Below the pieces are notes generated by a model, which saw only the letters and a list, made by a program, of their open reading frames with translations, did not search any database and had not been told where the DNA came from. A stretch of 22,685 nucleotides of DNA. Source: a virus. The translations under genes were made by a program, and so were the position numbers. Positions 3,845-21,583 of this stretch are shown here, piece after piece. Location: positions 1-22,685 of the IMG/VR virus record IMGVR_UViG_3300013010_000077. One strand, written 5' to 3'. Within the stretch, counting starts at the first letter, position 1, and each line of letters opens with the position of its first letter.

Positions 3845-4061
3845 TTGGAAAGAACTGCATAGAGTATTGCTAGTTGATTATCAACATACAAAAAATGCAG
3901 TCTCATGGTGTGAACAATCTTTAGAGCCAAAAGATTGGAGTGTAGAGTATTTTGAAAATAATGATTGTTTTTACTTTACATCTAAGACTAAATGTGGTAT
4001 GTTTATGTTTGTAAATGGTGGTAAATATATTGCCCCGCCAAGAGGAGTAGATAATGGCTGA
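3837..4061 (+). CDS. Small acidic protein of unknown function (74 aa)
   Basis: I chose the ATG at 3837 (MNDWKELHRVL), which overlaps the previous stop by eight bases. An upstream alternative start at 3807 lies deep inside the kinase gene and is unlikely. The C-terminal half has a hydrophobic beta pattern CFYFTSKTKCGMFMFV, similar in style to YFEDDTDAAMFIMVW at the end of the 6770 gene, so the two may share a small fold. No known domain is recognised. It overlaps the next gene by eight bases. Confidence 0.65.
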   Translation: MNDWKELHRVLLVDYQHTKNAVSWCEQSLEPKDWSVEYFENNDCFYFTSKTKCGMFMFVNGGKYIAPPRGVDNG

Positions 4062-4536
4062 TAAACTTCCATTGAATGATGTTCTGAATGCTATTGACCA
4101 GCGTGATTATGATTGGTACTCGAGGCTATCAGATGATGATAAGAAGAAATGGAGTAGTTGGTTATTCTTGCGCTATGCCAGCACGGTGAAGGGGTCTGGA
4201 GCAGGCGAAGCATTACTTGCAACAAATGACTTTGTAAATAAGTATTACACCGATTTATACAAGCATGAAGAATTGATATGGAAGTTAATGTGTCTAACTG
4301 GGTCAGGTAAGAAAAAATATCACGAATGGATTAAACCTCCTACCGCAATCAAAAAGAAAGATACTATTACAGAATTTTTAGTAGACACGATGCCACATTT
4401 AAAAAACGATGAAATAGAACTATATCGAACTTTAAACGCAGATGAAGATATAAAACGCATGGCAGTTGATATGGGTATTGATGATAAAAGAATAGATGAA
4501 ATATTTGGTAAAACAAAGCGAAGGAAGAAAAAATGA
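4054..4536 (+). CDS. Possible sliding-clamp-loader small subunit (gp62-like)
   Basis: A 160-residue helical protein with a strongly basic tail (TKRRKKK). Landmarks are WSSWLFLRYAS (about 33-43), NDFVNKYYTDLYKHEELIWKL (about 58-78) and GSGKKKYHEWIKPP (about 83-96). The pattern (WLxxRYxS, TNxxVNK, KHxELxWKL, GSGKK) resembles small helical proteins of marine T4-like phages that I associate with the clamp-loader A subunit, which with gp44 loads the gp45 clamp. This rests on family memory, not a strong motif, and no gp44 or gp45 gene is adjacent. It could instead be an unrelated conserved phage protein. AGAGGAG precedes the ATG, and the stop overlaps the next ATG (ATGA). Confidence 0.75.
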   Translation: MADKLPLNDVLNAIDQRDYDWYSRLSDDDKKKWSSWLFLRYASTVKGSGAGEALLATNDFVNKYYTDLYKHEELIWKLMCLTGSGKKKYHEWIKPPTAIKKKDTITEFLVDTMPHLKNDEIELYRTLNADEDIKRMAVDMGIDDKRIDEIFGKTKRRKKK

Positions 4537-7078: not shown

Positions 7079-7284
7079 GCGGACAGAGACGTTTTTTGAA
7101 AATGTGGGCACGTACTGTTGGAATGCCAATTGGCATCACAGACGATGACAAGCCTGAATTTTTACCTATTACACAGAAAGATGTAAAACGTGCATTGACG
7201 TTTAGAACATTCTGGATTGTCTTGCATATTGTTACCTGTTGTGCTATTATAGCAGGTAACGGCAGAACATTAGGTGTATGGTAA
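7075..7284 (+). CDS. Small membrane protein (69 aa)
   Basis: The ATG at 7075 overlaps the previous stop (ATGA) and is preferred over the GTG six bases earlier. The first 40 residues are hydrophilic. FWIVLHIVTCCAIIAGN (about 45-61) is a single transmembrane helix, with a short tail NGRTLGVW. It most likely sits in the host inner membrane. Similar tiny proteins occur in marine T4-like phages, with no known function. The DNA encoding the membrane helix contains a perfect 8-base-arm inverted repeat (7231-7260). The stop overlaps the next start. Confidence 0.72.
   Translation: MSGQRRFLKMWARTVGMPIGITDDDKPEFLPITQKDVKRALTFRTFWIVLHIVTCCAIIAGNGRTLGVW
7231..7260 (+). repeat. Inverted repeat inside the membrane-protein gene
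   Basis: GTTACCTG (7231-7238) and CAGGTAAC (7253-7260) are exact reverse complements. With wobble pairs the stem can extend to about 12 pairs around a six-base loop. No T-run follows, so it is not an intrinsic terminator. It could be an mRNA processing or stability hairpin, or a consequence of coding. Confidence 0.5.
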
Positions 7285-7859
7285 TGAAAACTCAAACTGA
7301 TATTGATATCGATATTTTAGACAGAGATAAAATTCTCAATATAATTAAGCACGTTCCTGCGAGTATAAAAAAGAATAAAACTTATACAAAACATAATAGT
7401 GGTGTATATGTATCCGCAATACCATATGATCCGGTGAGTAATCTAGCAAGTATTGAATATAAAGAAGCAGAAGAACGTGGTTACTTTAAATTAGATTTTT
7501 TGAATAATAGTTTATATGCCGGAATACAAGATGAAGAACATCTATCTCGACTAACAGACAGAGAACCGATGTGGGAGTTATTAGAACATTCGGAGATTGT
7601 TGAACAACTTTCACACATACATAGTCATATTGATGTATTACAAGTACTGAAACCAAGAAGTGTCATAGAATTGGCAGAAGTTCTTGCTATAATTCGACCA
7701 GCAAAAAGATATTTATTGAATGAAAGTAATGCTACCATTAAAGAAAATGTATGGAAAAAGCCACAAGACAATAGTTATTATTTTAAAAAGGCACACGCAA
7801 TTGCCTATGCTTTAAGTATTGTAGTACAACTCAATCTAATTTGCGAACAAGTTGAATAG
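7284..7859 (+). CDS. Miniature family C (DnaE-like) polymerase core protein
   Basis: 191 residues from the ATG at 7284, which overlaps the previous stop (TAATG) and has AGGTG eight bases upstream; the in-frame ATG at 7278 is too close to that site. The order of motifs follows bacterial PolIII alpha palm-fingers: TDIDIDILDRDKI (5-17), like the catalytic PDIDxDF; KHNSGVYVSA (36-45), like HaaGVVIs; GYFKLDFLNNSLY (66-78), like GLxKFDFLGL with the third catalytic Asp (D71); LKPRSVIELAEVLAIIRPA (122-140), like LxPxxfeDLvAxxALyRPGP; and YYFKKAHAIAYALSIV (165-180), like YGFNKSHAxAYALxSY. The three carboxylates (D6, D8, D71) are all kept, yet the protein is about one sixth of DnaE. Whether it polymerises is unknown; it could be a regulatory decoy or structural relic. 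It ends the uvsW operon and overlaps the convergent gene by 29 bases. Confidence 0.75.
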   Translation: MKTQTDIDIDILDRDKILNIIKHVPASIKKNKTYTKHNSGVYVSAIPYDPVSNLASIEYKEAEERGYFKLDFLNNSLYAGIQDEEHLSRLTDREPMWELLEHSEIVEQLSHIHSHIDVLQVLKPRSVIELAEVLAIIRPAKRYLLNESNATIKENVWKKPQDNSYYFKKAHAIAYALSIVVQLNLICEQVE

Positions 7860-8217
7860 ACCTTCGTTTAATTCTTTTTTGTACAATATTATTTAAGCTA
7901 GTTTCCGGTCCCCAAGCGATTTGTACATCCTTAGAATTCATATTCACAATCCAATTTCTATATGGAATTATTTGTGATCCTAAAAATAGATTAATGGGAA
8001 TTAGTCTATTTGATTCCCACCACCATTGTTCGCCCAGTTCAATGAACTGCTTCCTTAATTCTGGTGTTGGCATTGCTTCCCAATTATACATAGAAGTAAT
8101 TGTGGTGTCAGTATTAATGACAATTCCCAGATAGTCAGTAAATTCTTTTTTTCCATAACGGACAAACGAGAAAAATGGGTAATTTTCCTGTATCCATTCT
8201 ATTTTTTTATCATCCAT
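7831..8217 (-). CDS. T4-like phage protein of unknown function, only minus-strand gene
   Basis: 128 residues from the ATG at 8217 (MDDKKIEWIQENYPFF). A longer start at 8265 would run through the late promoter and is rejected. The protein has a Trp-rich centre (EQWWWESNRLIPINLFL) and a basic C-terminus (NNIVQKRIKRRSIQLVRK), which I associate with a conserved family of marine T4-like phages of unknown function. An exact TATAAATA on this strand (8230-8223) puts +1 on the A of the ATG, with no Shine-Dalgarno, so it is probably late and leaderless. Its 3' end overlaps the convergent DnaE-like gene. Confidence 0.8.
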   Translation of the reverse strand: MDDKKIEWIQENYPFFSFVRYGKKEFTDYLGIVINTDTTITSMYNWEAMPTPELRKQFIELGEQWWWESNRLIPINLFLGSQIIPYRNWIVNMNSKDVQIAWGPETSLNNIVQKRIKRRSIQLVRKLD

Positions 8218-10421: not shown

Positions 10422-11348
10422 ATGAATAAAATTACTACCATAAACGGCGATATGCGCTCAGTCAATAATGATATAGACGATAACTCAATCGATTTATTGT
10501 TAACCGATCCACCCTATAATATAAGTGATAGAGGCGCTCAGGAAGTTAGTTGGGTTGATCCTGTCACTGGTAAAAATAAAAATGCTATTCATAGTCAAAA
10601 ATTTGACAAAAAGTTTGAAGAAAATTGGGATAGTTTAGATGATGCTGCTTTTAAACAGCAACTTGTAGAATGGTCAGAAGTATGGTTTAATAAAATGCGC
10701 AAGGGTGGGACGTTTTGTGTTTTCATCAGTGATGTGTATATTAGTCATCTTTGGGAAGCAATGGAATCAGTTGGATTTGAACCTAAACGTGTATTCACCT
10801 GGAAGAAGCCAGCTGCAGTACCATTCAATAGAAATGTAAATCCGATTAGTGGATGTGAATATATTATCTTTGGTATTAAACCCGGCGGTAAACGCACATT
10901 CAATAGTGATGCAGTTAAAGGCACAATTGTTGAACGCTATAGTCTTGCCGACAAAATAAGTAGCATTTTATATAAGTATATAAAAGATGACATTTATGGT
11001 AATTTGGATAAATGCTTTAATGATGCATTAATCGATGCTAAAAAAGTATATAGTAAGTTGAAAAAAACTAACGAGATAGTACATTGTGTTGTTCCAAATA
11101 CGATATCATATAGTGGTGGCCTAGGCAAAAATAAAATACATCCAACACAAAAGCCAGAAGAAATCTTAGAATACTTTATTACATTATGCAGTAATCCTGG
11201 CGATACAGTCTTGGATACGTTTGCTGGTAGTGGTAGCACAGGGATAGCAGCAAGATCGATTAATCGAAATGCAATACTAATTGAGCGTGATCCTATAATG
11301 TATAAAAAGATGGCAGAAAGATTTGATAATTCAAATTTATTTGATTAA
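10422..11348 (+). CDS. DNA methyltransferase, beta class (N6-adenine or N4-cytosine)
   Basis: 308 residues. The catalytic motif IV DLLLTDPPYNIS (24-35) precedes the SAM-binding motif I DTFAGSGSTGIAAR (265-278), the order that defines beta-class amino-methyltransferases. NKIHPTQKPEE, just before motif I, is typical of this class. An intervening region (about 35-240) includes NRNVNPISGCEYIIFG and would hold the target-recognition part. All key residues are intact. The target sequence cannot be read from the protein. It stands alone on a leaderless consensus promoter, separate from the nuclease-like gene upstream, so it could be expressed early and strongly to protect the phage DNA before host restriction acts. 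Confidence 0.9.
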   Translation: MNKITTINGDMRSVNNDIDDNSIDLLLTDPPYNISDRGAQEVSWVDPVTGKNKNAIHSQKFDKKFEENWDSLDDAAFKQQLVEWSEVWFNKMRKGGTFCVFISDVYISHLWEAMESVGFEPKRVFTWKKPAAVPFNRNVNPISGCEYIIFGIKPGGKRTFNSDAVKGTIVERYSLADKISSILYKYIKDDIYGNLDKCFNDALIDAKKVYSKLKKTNEIVHCVVPNTISYSGGLGKNKIHPTQKPEEILEYFITLCSNPGDTVLDTFAGSGSTGIAARSINRNAILIERDPIMYKKMAERFDNSNLFD

Positions 11349-11558: not shown

Positions 11559-12923
11559 ATGAAACCGATGAAATCATTAGTATATACTACGAAAACAGAA
11601 ACAGTGTGTGACTTTGTTGGTAGAGTTGATATAGATGCAGATCCAGCACATCAGCGCCCTCAAATACAAGATAATAGTAAACGTGTGGGCATTATCGAAG
11701 CAATGCTGGCTGGAATAGATGTTGGCGAGATTAAGTTGAATCAAAACTCAGAGAACTCAGACCAAGTAGAACTAGAAGTGATTGACGGTTCAAATAGATT
11801 GCGTTCTATTAAACAGTTTTGCGCTGACGAGTTTCCTATTTCTGAAAAGAACTTTTCAGAGTTACCAGGTGAAGTACAAGATATATTTCTAAATTATCCT
11901 CTTAGATATATAATTTACGATAATTTGTCATCACGAGATAAAGCGTATCAGTTTCAAGCAACAAATAAAACAACTGATGTAAATCACCAAGAAAAATTGA
12001 ATTCATATGGTGTTGATTTGTTAGCATCTTTGGTACGAGAATGTGTTCGTACAATTCCAGGAACAGACACAGTTCCAGAAGCATTGTTTGCATCTACTCC
12101 TAACAAAAAAGGAGACAAGAGAAATTTCAGATTTTTTCAGTTTGACAATAATCGATTAAAAATGGAAGATGACGTGGCTCGTATTGCCTATCTTTGTAAT
12201 GTAGATGAAGGTCTAGTTGGACACGACGATAAAAAGATGGAAAAATTCTATGACACTCATGGTCTTAATGAGAAAGAAATCAAATCACTTCACAAGAAAA
12301 TGAAAAAGGTATTCACGTTTGTTATGAAAAACGCAAATGCAAGAATGGAAAGCCATCTGAAAGCAGGATTAAGTCGTTTAGAATTTAGAGCCTTATATCG
12401 TTTATATTTTTATTTGACAGAAAAGTATGGCAGTTTTCATGTTGAAGACTACGCGGGGTTCTTTATGGCATTTAAGCAAGGTCATGATGCTTTCGCTAGT
12501 ACTATGCCCACACGAACAGAAAAAGTGATTGACAAAAATGGTGTAGAAAAACTCGAATCTCAAGTATATATCAAAGCATTAGGAAGCCACGAAAAATCCT
12601 GTGAGATTGCAGTCACGTACTTACTAGAAGAGTTTGACGTAGAAAAGTATATGATTAATTTAGATAACAAAAGAGTACCAACACGCGATGAAAAAGAGAC
12701 ACAACTTCAACGCCAGGATTTCAAATGCTGGGTCGATGGCAAACCATTGACAATGAATGAGGCAGAAGGTGGCCATATCATTGCTCACATTAAAGGTGGC
12801 AATTCTGATGCTGATAACTTTCGCATGATGCGAAAGATTCATAACCGGAAGATGGGCAAAAAGAATGCCAGAGAATATAAAGAAAAGTTCTTAGCAGAAC
12901 AAAAAACGCTACTATCTGCATGA
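11559..12923 (+). CDS. DUF262-like (ParB-fold) protein with C-terminal HNH nuclease
   Basis: 454 residues. The N-terminal part reads ADPAHQRPQ (27-35), SKRVGIIEAMLAGIDVGEI (40-58) and VIDGSNRLRSIKQF (74-87), the usual DUF262 signature (R-Q, IeSILxGxpi, VIDGxQRLxxixxF) with the NTP-binding DGxxR loop. A long helical middle follows. The C-terminus is an HNH nuclease: C390, GGHIIAH (404-410), N415/N420 and H428-N429. DUF262 plus HNH is the architecture of GmrSD/BrxU-type enzymes, which cut DNA carrying modified bases, and also of some ParB-HNH phage proteins. The only zinc Cys visible is C390, so a zinc-type HNH is uncertain. It has a 31-base leader with an AGGAG Shine-Dalgarno (11544-11548). 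Confidence 0.85.
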   Translation: MKPMKSLVYTTKTETVCDFVGRVDIDADPAHQRPQIQDNSKRVGIIEAMLAGIDVGEIKLNQNSENSDQVELEVIDGSNRLRSIKQFCADEFPISEKNFSELPGEVQDIFLNYPLRYIIYDNLSSRDKAYQFQATNKTTDVNHQEKLNSYGVDLLASLVRECVRTIPGTDTVPEALFASTPNKKGDKRNFRFFQFDNNRLKMEDDVARIAYLCNVDEGLVGHDDKKMEKFYDTHGLNEKEIKSLHKKMKKVFTFVMKNANARMESHLKAGLSRLEFRALYRLYFYLTEKYGSFHVEDYAGFFMAFKQGHDAFASTMPTRTEKVIDKNGVEKLESQVYIKALGSHEKSCEIAVTYLLEEFDVEKYMINLDNKRVPTRDEKETQLQRQDFKCWVDGKPLTMNEAEGGHIIAHIKGGNSDADNFRMMRKIHNRKMGKKNAREYKEKFLAEQKTLLSA

Positions 12924-12967: not shown

Positions 12968-13969
12968 ATGAATTTACAACAATTGTTATATTCACATTTG
13001 CCACATAAGAGACGGCAATCATCTGGTGGGTGGTTGTCGTTTAATTGTCCGTGTTGTGTTGATAATGGCGAAGCACGTAATGATACCAGATTACGTGGTG
13101 GTATTCGGAATGATGATAACAGCATTTCATATCATTGCTTTAATTGTGGCTTTACTGCGTCATATAAGTCAGGTAGGGTTATTAACAAAAAAATGATTTT
13201 ACTAATGCGTAATTTGGGCATTTCAGATTCTGAAATTAAACGTGTTCAATTACAAGCAATACGAGATAAAGAATTAGCGGACGGTCCAATGCTATTTGCT
13301 AGTGAAAAGACTAACATTGTTGTACCTAAATTTAAAGATTGTGAATTGCCTGACGGCAGTGTATTGCTAGACGATGTGCTACAAAGTGATGCACCCGATA
13401 AAAGAGCAATTTTAGGTGCTAAATACTTAATAGATCGTGGACTATATGATCATGTAAGTAATATATACTGGAGTCCACATCCAGTATTTAGACAACGTGT
13501 TATTATTCCGTATTATCAAGGTGAACGTATAGTAGGATATACTGGCAGAGACTATACTGACAACGCAGATTCAAAATATATGATGAAGACACCTAAAGAC
13601 TTTATATATAATATCGATGTTATTAAGAGTAGACGTAAATATTTGATAGTAACAGAAGGAGTTTTTGATGCAGCGGCATTAGACTGTGTTGCTATAATGA
13701 GTAATGAGGCAAGTAAAGAACAAATAGATTACATTAACTTATTTAAAGGTGAAATTATATTAAGTCCCGACAGAGATAAGGCAGGCCAAAAATTGATCAA
13801 ACAGGCAATCGAAAATGGTTGGTCAGTTAGTTTTCCACGATGGGAAGATGATATAAAAGATGCTGCTGATGCAGTGAATAGATATGGCAAGTTATACACA
13901 CTAAAGAGTATAATTGATAGTAAGATAAGTAATAGTACAAAAATAAACGTAAAAATGCGATTAGGATAA
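12968..13969 (+). CDS. 61: DNA primase, T4 gp61 type
   Basis: 333 residues, close to T4 gp61 (342). The N-terminal zinc ribbon uses CPCC (27-30) and CFNC (57-60). The Toprim catalytic domain has LIVTEGVFDAAAL (about 223-235) with the catalytic Glu, and ILSPDRDKAG (about 260-269) with the DxD-type metal site. It synthesises the RNA primers for lagging-strand replication with the gp41 helicase, whose gene lies at 18342. The start is set by the promoter, whose +1 falls on the ATG. ClpP follows after 16 bases and is probably co-transcribed. Confidence 0.92.
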   Translation: MNLQQLLYSHLPHKRRQSSGGWLSFNCPCCVDNGEARNDTRLRGGIRNDDNSISYHCFNCGFTASYKSGRVINKKMILLMRNLGISDSEIKRVQLQAIRDKELADGPMLFASEKTNIVVPKFKDCELPDGSVLLDDVLQSDAPDKRAILGAKYLIDRGLYDHVSNIYWSPHPVFRQRVIIPYYQGERIVGYTGRDYTDNADSKYMMKTPKDFIYNIDVIKSRRKYLIVTEGVFDAAALDCVAIMSNEASKEQIDYINLFKGEIILSPDRDKAGQKLIKQAIENGWSVSFPRWEDDIKDAADAVNRYGKLYTLKSIIDSKISNSTKINVKMRLG

Positions 13970-14744: not shown

Positions 14745-15182
14745 ATGACAGAAAAAACAAATACCCAAACAAATACCCCAGTACCAGAAGTGAAAGAATC
14801 TGGTGAATATGAAAACTTGATGGATCTTGCTGATAAGAATAAACAGCAAAAAATTGAAAATCCTGATGCGTTTACGAGTTTATTTGATGTCGAAGAAATA
14901 GAAATTAATCCAGACCATTGGACACAACATTGGAAAGGCATGCCTGAGTATGTACAGGAAGACAATGGACCGTGGAAAACAATTAGAATTCATTTTCGCA
15001 ATGAAGAAGATTATGAAGAATTTGCAAAGTTAACAGATAATACGCATCTCACCAAGAAAACAAAAAGTGCTTGGTATCCTAAACTAGAAATTACTAAAAA
15101 TGCACTACTACGTTGGATAGAAGATGATGACGATGCCGAAGACTTATCAATTGATGATGATAATAATGAAGGTTGGGAATGA
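14745..15182 (+). CDS. Acidic protein of unknown function upstream of the glycosyltransferase
   Basis: 145 residues. The first 45 are polar and probably disordered. A compact domain follows: HWTQHWKGMPEYVQED (about 65-80), IRIHFRNEEDYEEFAKL and KKTKSAWYPKL, ending in a very acidic tail (EDDDDAEDLSIDDDN). The W-GMPEY, HFR-x-DYExF and KTKSxWYP pattern is one I associate with small phage proteins next to DNA-modification genes, sometimes fused to ParB-type domains. Function unknown; its coupling to the glycosyltransferase (ATGA overlap) suggests a shared job. The leader is about 26 bases with only a weak Shine-Dalgarno. Confidence 0.8.
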   Translation: MTEKTNTQTNTPVPEVKESGEYENLMDLADKNKQQKIENPDAFTSLFDVEEIEINPDHWTQHWKGMPEYVQEDNGPWKTIRIHFRNEEDYEEFAKLTDNTHLTKKTKSAWYPKLEITKNALLRWIEDDDDAEDLSIDDDNNEGWE

Positions 15183-16126
15183 GTAAACGAACAGATCCAA
15201 AATATCCAGTATATATTATATCTAAAACTAGACATGAATCCATGTTTACTTCTCGTTCATTAGCACGTATGGGAATAAAACATTATATTTCTATAGAACC
15301 ACAAGATTATGATAATTATGATGCAGCATTAGATGAATTTAATATTAGGCCATATGTTACATTGTTAACATTGCCATTTAGTAATCACGGTGATGGACCA
15401 GGCAGAGCAAGGAACTGGTGCTGGGATCATTCTATGGAAGTGTTAAAAGCAAAAAAACATTGGGTATTAGATGATAATATTCAAGACTTTTATAGACTGC
15501 ACAATAATCAGCGTATTCGTGTGGAGTCTGGATTATTCTTTAAGATAATGGAAGACTTTTGCGATAGATATGAAAATGTAAAAATTGCCGGACCACAGTA
15601 TCGTTTTTTCTGTGCAGCAGATCAATCATATCCTCCATATGTAAAAAATACTCGAATATATTCAACACTTCTAATTGAAAATGATTGTAAGTATAGATGG
15701 CGTGGCAGATACAATGAGGATACCGATATTTGTCTTCGTGTTCTTAAAGATGGTGATTGTACTATACAGTTTAATGCATTTTTACAGGGAAAGTGTGCAA
15801 CTCAAACTGTTAAGGGCGGTAATACAGAAGAATTTTATCATGCTGAATACACGGATAATGAAGACTTTCAAAAAACCAAATACAACAGTGACGGAACAAT
15901 TAATAAATCACAGATGTTAGCAGATATGCATCCTGATGTTGCGAAAGTAGTGTGGAGATATGGAAGATGGCATCATTACGTAGACTATTTGCCATTTAAA
16001 AAGAATATGCTAAAGTTAAAAGATGGCATTACATTACCGACAGAAACAAATAATTATGGTCTCAAACTAAAAACATATAATAGTGTCAGCGAATTTGAAA
16101 CTGAACAGAACATTCAAACAAAATAG
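15179..16126 (+). CDS. TET-associated (TAGT-like) DNA-base glycosyltransferase
   Basis: 315 residues from the ATG at 15179 (MSKRTDPKYP), which overlaps the previous stop by ATGA; a start six bases earlier is less likely. The fold is GT-A like: IISKTRHESMFTSRSLARMG (13-32), GPGRARNWCWDHS (73-85), HWVLDDNIQDFYR (94-106) with the DDN metal/nucleotide motif, and RGRYNEDTDICLRVLKDG (175-192). These match my memory of the TAGT family, which is predicted to add sugars to oxidised or hydroxymethylated DNA bases and was described with TET/JBP dioxygenases in phages. No such dioxygenase is in this window, so the base and sugar are unknown. If active, it would shield phage DNA from host restriction. Confidence 0.85.
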   Translation: MSKRTDPKYPVYIISKTRHESMFTSRSLARMGIKHYISIEPQDYDNYDAALDEFNIRPYVTLLTLPFSNHGDGPGRARNWCWDHSMEVLKAKKHWVLDDNIQDFYRLHNNQRIRVESGLFFKIMEDFCDRYENVKIAGPQYRFFCAADQSYPPYVKNTRIYSTLLIENDCKYRWRGRYNEDTDICLRVLKDGDCTIQFNAFLQGKCATQTVKGGNTEEFYHAEYTDNEDFQKTKYNSDGTINKSQMLADMHPDVAKVVWRYGRWHHYVDYLPFKKNMLKLKDGITLPTETNNYGLKLKTYNSVSEFETEQNIQTK

Positions 16127-17434: not shown

Positions 17435-18301
17435 ATGAATCATACAGTTTACAATCAAGATTGTACTAGTGGCATCAGTGAGCATATAGAAGATGGAACA
17501 GTAGATTTGATATTTACTGATCCTCCTTATGGCATCGAGGGTGATAAACTTGACGCACATTATAATCGTGACGAAGGCAACGTAGTTCCTGGCTATGTAG
17601 AAGTTCCATTAGAAACATATGGTGATTTTTCTAAGCAATGGATTACAGAATGTGCACGGGTTTTACGACCAGGCGGTAGTATGTATATTGTCAGTGGTTA
17701 TACAAATTTGCATCATATACTTAATGCATTGCATTCAACTGACTTAAAAGAAATTAATCATATTATTGCACAATATAGTTTTGGTGTATCAACAAAAAAT
17801 AAATTTGTAAGTAGTCACTATCATGTTTTGTTTTGGTCAAAGCCAGAAACAAGCAAGCAAAAGCGCACATTTAATACTAATGTCTATTATACAGATAGCA
17901 AAGATAGTTATCATGATCGTCTGACTGTTCAAACAATGCCGCGCAGTCATAAGCCCGGTCAAATTAAAAACAAGAATCAACTAAATGAAGATTGGATTGA
18001 AAAGTTTATATTGTATAGTAGTAATCGTGGTGATGTAGTAATGGATCCATTTTGTGGTGGCTTTACTACGCCTAGAACTGCATTACGATATGGTAGAAAA
18101 TTTGTTGGATTTGAAATGAATAAGAATGCGTATGATGCTTTCTTGCCAACATTGGACGAAGTTGAAGTAGTCACTGATCCAGAGCCTATCTCACCATCTG
18201 CAGAAGAACTTGCAAAACGAGAAAAGCAGCGCGACGGATGGAAGAGAGACAGATTACGTAAGAAAGAAGAAAACAATTTAAATCCAGCACTGTTTGACTA
18301 A
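17435..18301 (+). CDS. DNA methyltransferase, beta class, with unusual SAM motif
   Basis: 288 residues. Motif IV DLIFTDPPYGIE (24-35) comes before motif I MDPFCGGFTTPRTA (about 203-216), giving beta-class order for N6-adenine or N4-cytosine methylation. Motif I usually reads DPFxGSGTT; here GSG is replaced by GGF, which may affect SAM binding or reflect a subfamily. KNKNQLNEDWIEKFI before motif I takes the place of the common HPTQKP. The C-terminus is highly charged (KREKQRDGWKRDRLRKKEEN). The adjacent nuclease-like gene upstream makes a restriction-modification pair possible. Its own promoter and strong Shine-Dalgarno would let it be made independently of the nuclease. Confidence 0.88.
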   Translation: MNHTVYNQDCTSGISEHIEDGTVDLIFTDPPYGIEGDKLDAHYNRDEGNVVPGYVEVPLETYGDFSKQWITECARVLRPGGSMYIVSGYTNLHHILNALHSTDLKEINHIIAQYSFGVSTKNKFVSSHYHVLFWSKPETSKQKRTFNTNVYYTDSKDSYHDRLTVQTMPRSHKPGQIKNKNQLNEDWIEKFILYSSNRGDVVMDPFCGGFTTPRTALRYGRKFVGFEMNKNAYDAFLPTLDEVEVVTDPEPISPSAEELAKREKQRDGWKRDRLRKKEENNLNPALFD

Positions 18302-18341: not shown

Positions 18342-19760
18342 ATGTCAGAAGTAAAAAATTATAGCCCAGACTTACAAAAACTATTCATTCAATTCATGGT
18401 GACTAATCCTGAACTATATACTAGGATCAGAGGGATTATAAAGCCTGAATATTTCGACCGCAGTGTCCGTCCTGTGGTCAAACAACTTATTGATTATAGT
18501 GAAGACTATTCTACACTACCAGATCCTGCAATTATTAAGGCAGAAACAGGACAAGACATTGAGAAGTTGGAAAACATAACCCAGCACGAAGAATGGTTTG
18601 TGGATGAGTTTGAGACATTTTGCCGTCACAAGGCTATTGAGAAGGCTATTATCGATAGTACAGATTTACTTGAGACTGGCAAGTACGGTGAAGTAGAACT
18701 TAGAATCAAAGAGGCTGTTCAAATTGGACTGGCACGTAGTTTGGGAACAGATTATTTCGCTGATCCCAGAGGTGTGCTTGAACGGATGAAAGACAACAAT
18801 GGTCAAATTACGACTGGTTGGAAATCTCTTGATGATAAGTTATATGGTGGCATTAATCGTGGGGAGATTACGATTTTTGCAGGAGGCTCCGGAGCAGGTA
18901 AATCCCTTTTTATGCAAAATATGAGCCTGAATTGGGCGGAGGCTGGGTTGAATTGTGTCTACTTCACATTGGAGTTATCCGAGGAACTTTCAAGTATGCG
19001 TATGTATGCAATGCAGACGGACCGCAGTACTAGGCGCATTTTCAAAGACTTAGATGATGTTGAACTACAAGTAAAAGCGAAAGGCAAACAGTCCGGTATG
19101 CTACGTATAAAGTATCTTCCGAGTGGTTCAACAATCAATGATTTACGGTCTTACTTGAAAGAACTTCAGATACAAACTGGCAAAACAGTTGATTGTATGT
19201 GCATTGACTACCTAGATTTGTTAATGCCAGCAACTAAAAAAGTACAAGCAGGTGACACATTTACCAAAGACAAATATGTTACAGAAGAAATGCGTAACTT
19301 TTCTATGGAAACACAAACTGTTACGGTGACTGCATCACAGTTAAATCGTAGTGCAGTTGAAGAAATTGAATTTGACCATTCTCATATTGCTGGCGGTATT
19401 AGTAAAATTCAAACTGCTGATAACGTAATTGGTATTTTTACATCTAATGCTATGCGTGAACGTGGGCAATATCAATTACAACTACTAAAAACACGGTCAT
19501 CTTCCGGTGTAGGTAGTAAAGTAAGTTTATTATTTGATAGAGATAGTTTACGCATATCAGATGATCCAGATCAAGATAGCACTGGTGCGGGCACACCAAG
19601 TGGTGGCGCTACCACCAGTGTTGTTGATCAACTCAGAAAGAAAACAACACTGAATAAATCAGACGATGATGACACTCCTGTTTTTGAAAAAACACAGGCT
19701 GCAAGTTCACTCAGAGCGATGCTTAAAACTAAAAGTAGATCAGCTTTTGACGAAACTTGA
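18342..19760 (+). CDS. 41: Replicative DNA helicase, T4 gp41 type (DnaB family)
   Basis: 472 residues, close to T4 gp41 (475). The N-terminal 130 residues are the helical collar (PELYTRIRGIIKPEYF). The RecA-like core has Walker A FAGGSGAGKSLF (179-190), the LELSEE segment about 30 residues on, and Walker B VDCMCIDYLDLLMPA. QLNRS and GGISKIQTADN follow as in DnaB-family helicases. The C-terminal tail is Gly/Thr-rich and then Lys/Asp-rich. It forms the hexamer that unwinds the fork and works with the gp61 primase. A late promoter lies across its stop codon (19759-19766). Confidence 0.93.
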   Translation: MSEVKNYSPDLQKLFIQFMVTNPELYTRIRGIIKPEYFDRSVRPVVKQLIDYSEDYSTLPDPAIIKAETGQDIEKLENITQHEEWFVDEFETFCRHKAIEKAIIDSTDLLETGKYGEVELRIKEAVQIGLARSLGTDYFADPRGVLERMKDNNGQITTGWKSLDDKLYGGINRGEITIFAGGSGAGKSLFMQNMSLNWAEAGLNCVYFTLELSEELSSMRMYAMQTDRSTRRIFKDLDDVELQVKAKGKQSGMLRIKYLPSGSTINDLRSYLKELQIQTGKTVDCMCIDYLDLLMPATKKVQAGDTFTKDKYVTEEMRNFSMETQTVTVTASQLNRSAVEEIEFDHSHIAGGISKIQTADNVIGIFTSNAMRERGQYQLQLLKTRSSSGVGSKVSLLFDRDSLRISDDPDQDSTGAGTPSGGATTSVVDQLRKKTTLNKSDDDDTPVFEKTQAASSLRAMLKTKSRSAFDET

Positions 19761-20022: not shown

Positions 20023-20240
20023 TGAATTATGAACAACAATTGAATCAACTAAAAGTACTAGCAGGCATTTATAAACCTTATGATGTGTCTCAGCATCAGG
20101 AAAATATCTCCTACACCGGACAAGAAAAAGGTGAGTATCAACGTAAGAATAATATCGAGCCTGGTACCCCTGAGTGGTTTAAATTATGGTTTTCAAGACC
20201 GCAACTAACTGGCGAAAATCCATTCGGAGATAAAAAATGA
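20022..20240 (+). CDS. Small phage protein of unknown function (72 aa)
   Basis: Coupled to the previous gene by TAATG. The C-terminal half, NNIEPGTPEWFKLWFSRPQL (44-63), then TGENPFGDKK, is a recognisable pattern (IxPGTxEWFxLWFxxPxLTGExP) I associate with T4-like phages, but the function is not known. The late operon suggests a virion or assembly role. Its stop overlaps the next ATG (ATGA). Confidence 0.75.
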   Translation: MNYEQQLNQLKVLAGIYKPYDVSQHQENISYTGQEKGEYQRKNNIEPGTPEWFKLWFSRPQLTGENPFGDKK

Positions 20241-21583
20241 AAATATCTGATATAATTTTAAATCAAGGTATTGAACGTAGATTTAGAGGTCCACGCAAAC
20301 CACGCTTAAAACAAGTAGGACTTCATAATCGTATGAAAACCTTACTTGACAACGATTTGAGTGAAGCAAAGAATACACATTTGGATCATGCTGAGGAATT
20401 AATCTTTATGTATGGACAAGATGGATTAAATCGTGTAGTTAGTACGTATTCCAAATTACTATCCACATTGGATGGAGAAGGCGGCGGTGATGCAATTACA
20501 ACAAAATGGGATGGTGCGCCTGCAATATTTGCCGGTGTTGATCCAGAAGATGGTGAGTTTTTTGTTGGAACTAAAGGTGTATTTGCAAAATCTCCCAAGT
20601 TGAATAAGAAGCCTGCCGATATTGAAAAAAATCATCCTGATGCTATTAAGAATGGTGAAACAGTAAGCAAAAAAGGATTACGTGATAAACTATATGCGTC
20701 CCTTGAACATCTTAAAACCCTGGGTATTTCTGATGTAGTTCAAGGTGATCTTCTTTTTACACGTGATGATCTAAAAGAAGTAAAGATTGAAGGCAAAAAG
20801 TATATAGCATTTAAGCCTAATACTATAACATATGTTGTTCCTGTGGATAGTGATACCGCACGTGAAATGTTATCATCCGAACTTGGTGTAGTATTTCATA
20901 CTAACTATACGGGTGATACATTGTCAGATATGAGTGCTAGATTTGGTTATGACGCAAGTAACTTAAATAAATCATCTAAAGTTTGGTATACAGATGCACG
21001 TATTAAAGACGTATCTGGACAAGTAAATCTTAGTAAGAGTGAGATTAGTGCAATTAAAACTGGAATTAATGAACTTTCAAGTTTGTCTATTCCTAGTCCA
21101 GAACTATTTAATAAAATTAATAATACTATTGGTGGAATAGATATAGTCGCTGCACTCAAGGCACACGCAAACACTCCCATTCGTTCAGGCAATGCGTTAG
21201 AGCAAGATGTTGATAAATTTGTAGTAGATTTTATTAATAAATTAAAAGATAAGTTTGATACTGATATATCTAAATTAAAAACTGGACCAGAAGGCAAAGC
21301 AGGACTAGCAAAATTAGATAAAAAGAATCAAGTTGTTGAGTTTATCGAAGAGAATGCAATCCATATTGCCAATATGTACCGAGCGTATTTGAAAACTGAA
21401 GCAGTAAAAATGATGTTTCAGCGTAAGATGCGAGATATTAAAGCGATTGATAGTTTTATTGCACAGCCAGATGGTTCATTTAAGGTAACTGATCCTGAGG
21501 GATTTGTTATTGTGGATCATGTTGGTCGCGCTATGAAAATTGTTGATAGATTAGAATTTAGCGCCGCGAACTTCGCAAAGTAA
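20237..21583 (+). CDS. KWDG-motif nucleotidyltransferase-like protein (DUF6267-like)
   Basis: 448 residues. A GGAGA Shine-Dalgarno lies six bases before the ATG, which overlaps the previous stop. ITTKWDGAPAIFAG (87-100) resembles motif I (KxDG) of covalent nucleotidyltransferases (DNA/RNA ligases, capping enzymes), with K90 as the possible nucleotide-linked Lys. FFVGTKGVFAKSPK (108-121), DVVQGDLLFTRDDL (166-179; similar to motif III) and KKYIAFKPNTITYVVP (187-202; possible motif IV/V Lys) follow in ligase order. The C-terminal half (about 210-448) is helical, without a known motif. I believe this corresponds to a named family of unknown function in T4-like phages (DUF6267). Late expression is unusual for a ligase and may mean genome-end or virion-linked work. 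Confidence 0.82.
   Translation: MKISDIILNQGIERRFRGPRKPRLKQVGLHNRMKTLLDNDLSEAKNTHLDHAEELIFMYGQDGLNRVVSTYSKLLSTLDGEGGGDAITTKWDGAPAIFAGVDPEDGEFFVGTKGVFAKSPKLNKKPADIEKNHPDAIKNGETVSKKGLRDKLYASLEHLKTLGISDVVQGDLLFTRDDLKEVKIEGKKYIAFKPNTITYVVPVDSDTAREMLSSELGVVFHTNYTGDTLSDMSARFGYDASNLNKSSKVWYTDARIKDVSGQVNLSKSEISAIKTGINELSSLSIPSPELFNKINNTIGGIDIVAALKAHANTPIRSGNALEQDVDKFVVDFINKLKDKFDTDISKLKTGPEGKAGLAKLDKKNQVVEFIEENAIHIANMYRAYLKTEAVKMMFQRKMRDIKAIDSFIAQPDGSFKVTDPEGFVIVDHVGRAMKIVDRLEFSAANFAK

Follow-up and report, generated by a model that had tools for sequence, protein, structure and literature searches.

The closest described system to the locus considered here is the split minimal Pol III alpha of group 2.2 jumbo phages, for which Iyer et al. 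(2021; PMC7824862) suggested that two proteins reconstitute one enzyme and proposed that this enzyme cooperates with a family B polymerase; the split enzyme was also used there in an argument on the early history of replication enzymes. In the CBB genome paper, CBB_328 appears as a truncated Pol III alpha of 172 amino acids (PMC5259590), and a survey of marine jumbo phages placed PF07733, the domain that recognises the N-terminal half, in about half of one group. Our literature search turned up neither later work nor an experimental study on the split enzyme.

The window analysed here is the whole stretch of 22,685 nucleotides from IMG/VR virus record IMGVR_UViG_3300013010_000077, and it encodes a further member of the kind described by Iyer et al. 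The gene is an intact open reading frame for 191 amino acids at 7284-7859 (+) whose product, hereafter the C-half, comprises the second palm part of DnaE and a truncated fingers domain, as assigned by homology and from an AlphaFold model. Its ATG overlaps the stop codon of the upstream frame (TAATG), and an in-frame ATG at 7278 is a possible alternative start. The initial annotation had read in this frame a series of DnaE-like peptides and all three catalytic aspartates; the peptides are all present in the order it gave, and D6, D8 and D71 correspond to E. coli D401, D403 and D555. Along the chain, the DIDID motif of residues 6-10 (7299-7313, +) carries the equivalents of D401, D403 and D405; the TKHNSG segment of residues 35-40 (7386-7403, +) corresponds to E. 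coli GKHAGG, with H511 and G514; KLDFL of residues 69-73 (7488-7502, +), holding the third catalytic aspartate D71, corresponds to K553-F-D555-F-L557; IIRPAK of residues 136-141 (7689-7706, +) corresponds to LFRPGP, with R639 and P640; and in FKKAHAIAYAL of residues 167-177 (7782-7814, +), H171 matches the E. coli steric gate H760. The E. coli numbering was verified on the K-12 gene, where the first two aspartates of PDFDVDF are D401 and D403 and D555 lies in VKFDFL.

Homology to Pol III alpha and the position of the split

Single-sequence searches of Pfam, NCBIfam and the PDB with the C-half gave no polymerase match. Despite this, its homology to Pol III alpha is secure, because phrog, profile-profile, HMMER and structure comparisons all match it to Pol III alpha, and control comparisons of unrelated profile pairs score 0.1-0.2%. 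The C-half matches phrog_11778, annotated as 'DNA polymerase', over its full length (E=1.4e-70), and matches phrog_405, a family of full-length phage Pol III alpha, weakly. A profile of 37 C-half members was compared with 12 Pol III alpha cores, among which phage sequences were included because the gammaproteobacterial DnaE set was too uniform for a profile; the result (P=2.2e-8, 95% probability) excludes chance, and the alignment sets K69-x-D71 on E. coli K553-x-D555 and pairs the fingers IRP with E. coli FRP. HMMER against the PDB gave short colinear matches to E. coli DnaE 401-420, 597-641 and 753-767, each weak singly. The AlphaFold model (pLDDT 92) retrieved only Pol III alpha and PolC among its top 15 PDB matches, the best at E=6e-4. 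The DnaE homology and the compactness claimed in the initial annotation are thus borne out.

Its idea of a self-contained family C core, however, did not stand, since the GRGS half of the palm is on a second, distant gene. Judging from the sequences, the C-half is not a mini-polymerase in its own right; it represents the C-terminal portion of a minimal Pol III alpha divided into two proteins. The GRGS nucleotide-binding motif is absent from its chain and is carried by a separate protein of about 180 amino acids, the N-half, which we located in related genomes with phrog_405 as query. Both N-halves scanned (n=2) score above the Pfam cut-off for PF07733, and the N-half profile matches DnaE 315-393 (P=8.4e-12); for the N-terminal ~100 residues no DnaE match was detected by profile comparison, and the model of the N-half is only moderately confident (pLDDT 75). 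For 76 of 78 N-halves, the last residues are EFLR/K and the distance from the start of GRGS to the chain end is 33 residues; E. coli DnaE has RFLN here, directly before PERVSMPD401. In all 81 loci compared the C-half starts 1-8 residues before DxDxD. The break therefore lies in the short loop preceding the first catalytic aspartate (D401), and the position of the C-half start leaves its chain without the GRGS half of the palm; the two proteins together span the palm core with no overlap.

Both halves are present in the four complete phages examined (4/4) and in the nearest relative of the window, a 146-kb record with a C-half 88% identical to ours. The two genes lie 31 to 224 kb apart in these genomes, with the N-half at 34.8 kb and the C-half at 125 kb in the nearest relative, at 44 and 13 kb in 121Q, 59 and 15 kb in Paride, 97 and 321 kb in Phosso, and 241 and 58 kb in Atu_ph07, respectively. 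Fused halves were absent from the 81 C-half loci and the 78 N-half loci, and no adjacent pair was found in the genomes examined. Within the 22.7-kb window, itself a fragment of a virus genome, the N-half query had no match. An upstream frame at 4054-4536 with a KGSGAGEAL string, at first a candidate for the missing GS half, belongs to phrog_11758 and gave no match to the N-half query; the string looks like a chance resemblance. Several long contigs also show one half only; they are linear virus records and possibly fragments, and incompleteness is the probable explanation. We note a 330-kb contig with a C-half and a family B polymerase in which no N-half was detected, an observation that an incomplete contig, loss or strong divergence would all fit.

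Spread, selection and gene neighbourhood

Phage records with a C-half number 90 and those with an N-half 94, a few of the latter being ordinary Pol III alpha genes; among viral contigs the counts are at least 156 and at least 596, respectively. Genus counts are nearly identical for both halves, with 34 Escherichia, 11 Pseudomonas, 8 Salmonella and 8 Erwinia records; the extra N-half matches include five Bacillus records, and those of the five that are among the matches listed are annotated as Pol III alpha or DNA polymerase. Neither phrog_11778 nor phrog_11637, the family of a neighbouring gene considered below, occurs in 14 cellular control genomes. C-halves of very different phages are about 50% identical, and a dN/dS of ~0.14 against close relatives indicates purifying selection. 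Of 17 related records, 11 encode a family B polymerase, the four complete phages among them, and none was seen in the 146-kb relative, which is possibly a fragment. The initial annotation had regarded a family C core beside a family B polymerase as lacking an obvious role; the coexistence itself holds, and it had already been described (PMC7824862). As for a proofreading partner, only 3 of 13 records had a DnaQ-type exonuclease above the cut-off, and no constant partner was seen.

In the window, the C-half gene lies between a gene for a UvsW-like DNA helicase (1442-2887, +) and those for a DNA primase (12968-13969, +) and a DnaB-like replicative helicase (18342-19760, +), and the layout around the C-half is similar in Phosso, 121Q and Paride. 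Its immediate downstream neighbour is a convergent gene of 128 codons plus stop (7831-8217, -) that overlaps its 3' end and belongs to phrog_11637. At all 85 loci examined, in phages very different from one another, a relative of this gene follows the C-half convergently, mostly touching or overlapping the 3' end, and the two were found together in all nine C-half records tested (9/9). The four N-half-only contigs tested have neither the C-half nor phrog_11637, as expected if that region is missing there. The phrog_11637 protein has a WWWESNR motif and a basic KRIKRR tail, with the WWW and the basic residues invariant, and no relative of it was found in the PDB, Pfam or NCBIfam. It is possibly a partner of the C-half. 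The thought that it might be a missing piece of DnaE was dropped after hhalign returned no match (0.2%).

Other genes of the window deserve brief mention. A phrog_455 protein (20237-21583, +), whose KWDG string (TTKWDGAPAIFAG) looks like ligase motif I, is possibly a nucleic-acid ligase, and a protein of 454 amino acids (11559-12923, +) combines a ParB/DUF262-like N-terminus with a C-terminal HNH-like stretch (GGHIIAHIKGGNSDADNF). A glycosyltransferase-like protein (15173-16126, +; HWVLDDN) and two DNA-methyltransferase-like genes (10422-11348 and 17435-18301, the second recognised by eye only) possibly point to DNA modification.

A possible two-chain polymerase and its alternatives

Invariant in the C-halves are the equivalents of D401, D403, D405, H511, G514, K553, D555, L557, R639, P640 and H760; the last of these, identified as the steric gate of E. 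coli DnaE (PMC8485763), is the histidine H171, kept in 37 of 37 members. The sole apparent gap in DxDxD, in Atu_ph07, disappears when the sequence upstream of a misannotated start is included: the annotated start of FDI40_gp074 is too late, and the frame extends upstream to MKNIPDIDIDF. The thumb and the block of the fingers with the DnaE invariants Q687, E688, R709 and F727 are deleted, the alignment skipping them, and 191 amino acids leave no room for the PHP, HhH, OB, clamp-binding and tau-binding parts, so that all flanking domains are lost. The N-half, for its part, has an invariant Glu at the position of DnaE R390. Because of this substitution and the deleted fingers segment, substrate handling may differ from that of DnaE. 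A beta-clamp motif suspected in the VQLNLI tail was rejected, since the tail sits, by eye, in the helix that continues the FNKSH...YQTLWL region of DnaE.

The comparisons establish the homology, the split site, the conservation of the residues, purifying selection and the co-occurrence of the halves, and on these we consider it probable, at roughly 0.6, that the two halves form a two-chain DNA polymerase of low processivity; assembly of the chains, activity and pathway are inferred. Let us assume that the two chains come together non-covalently. Of a minimal DnaE-type polymerase, the C-half would then supply the part with the metal-binding site and the fingers, and the N-half the GRGS helix, which in DnaE belongs to the nucleotide-binding part of the palm. 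This helix would pack on the strand carrying D6 and D8, with D71 on the neighbouring strand, and two metals and the incoming dNTP would be bound at the interface, where H171 would act as the sugar gate. Because the thumb and the PHP, HhH, OB, clamp-binding and tau-binding parts are missing, the enzyme would be expected to be slow and distributive. It would work alongside the family B replicase on brief tasks, for instance filling gaps or extending DNA during recombination or at lesions.

The main rival, because of the deleted fingers block with R709, is that the halves make up an active nucleotidyltransferase other than a templated DNA polymerase, perhaps a terminal transferase, a primer-making enzyme or a nucleotide- or base-modifying enzyme. 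The Pol-beta fold occurs in many enzymes that are not polymerases, and such an activity is conceivable for a protein pair that lacks the DnaE thumb, the larger part of the fingers and every DNA-gripping domain; we nevertheless hold it to be doubtful, as the invariant steric-gate histidine and the RP of the fingers point to dNTP selection and the C-half gene sits within a replication and recombination module.

The initial annotation had also entertained a host-replisome decoy, in which the C-half alone would bind and inhibit host Pol III subunits or the beta clamp. An isolated DnaE-like fragment, with no full polymerase domain on one chain, might suit such a role, but the idea is unlikely because the active-site residues, including the steric-gate histidine, are invariant across 37 diverse members, and a decoy would not need them; the N-half, moreover, travels with the C-half, and the fragment does not include the clamp-, tau- and epsilon-binding parts of DnaE. 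Post-translational joining of the halves by a split intein would have a precedent in cyanobacteria, where the dnaE gene is split in two and its products are so joined, but that split lies elsewhere, near the FNKSH motif, and with the chain ends mapped above there is no space for intein sequence at the end of the N-half or the start of the C-half, so that we reject it as extremely improbable. A decaying remnant of a captured host dnaE, suggested by the small size relative to DnaE and by the description of the CBB relative as truncated (PMC5259590), is equally improbable given the spread over viral contigs, the identity kept between very different phages, the strong purifying selection and the invariant active site.

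Returning to the two-chain polymerase, an active site split over two separately encoded proteins is very unusual and, if true, would show the minimum of a bacterial replicase needed for catalysis. It is a tentative and rather unlikely further step that the halves, possibly with the phrog_11637 protein, form an obligate multi-chain polymerase, which would be the smallest family C core, functioning without a thumb or the R709 fingers block. The mapped split site and residues make reconstitution with two proteins of ~20 kDa simple.

Comparison with described polymerases

With DnaE, the C-half shares the catalytic aspartate triad, D405, H511, K553, the RP of the fingers, the steric-gate H760 and the palm fold. 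DnaE, in contrast, is one chain of ~1,160 amino acids in E. coli, against two of ~180-190 here, and the split enzyme lacks its PHP, thumb, R709 fingers block, HhH, OB, clamp- and tau-binding parts. PolC has the same catalytic triad, with a weak structural match, but has Asn at the D405 position (PMC3919608), where the C-half has Asp, as in DnaE groups. The truncated Pol III alpha proteins of phrog_11778 and the CBB_328 type, from RaK2-like phages, belong to the same family over their full length and have in common with the window the gene order of primase, helicase and phrog_11637; they differ in being only ~45-50% identical and in having been annotated as a whole or truncated polymerase, not as one half.

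From the split Pol III alpha of Iyer et al. we find no difference in kind, the window being a fragment of a virus genome; the likeness is that the C-half of the window shares homology with the part of Pol III alpha that comprises the metal-binding site and the fingers. What our analysis adds to that description is the mapped split site, the inventory of residues kept and lost, and the conserved convergent phrog_11637 gene.
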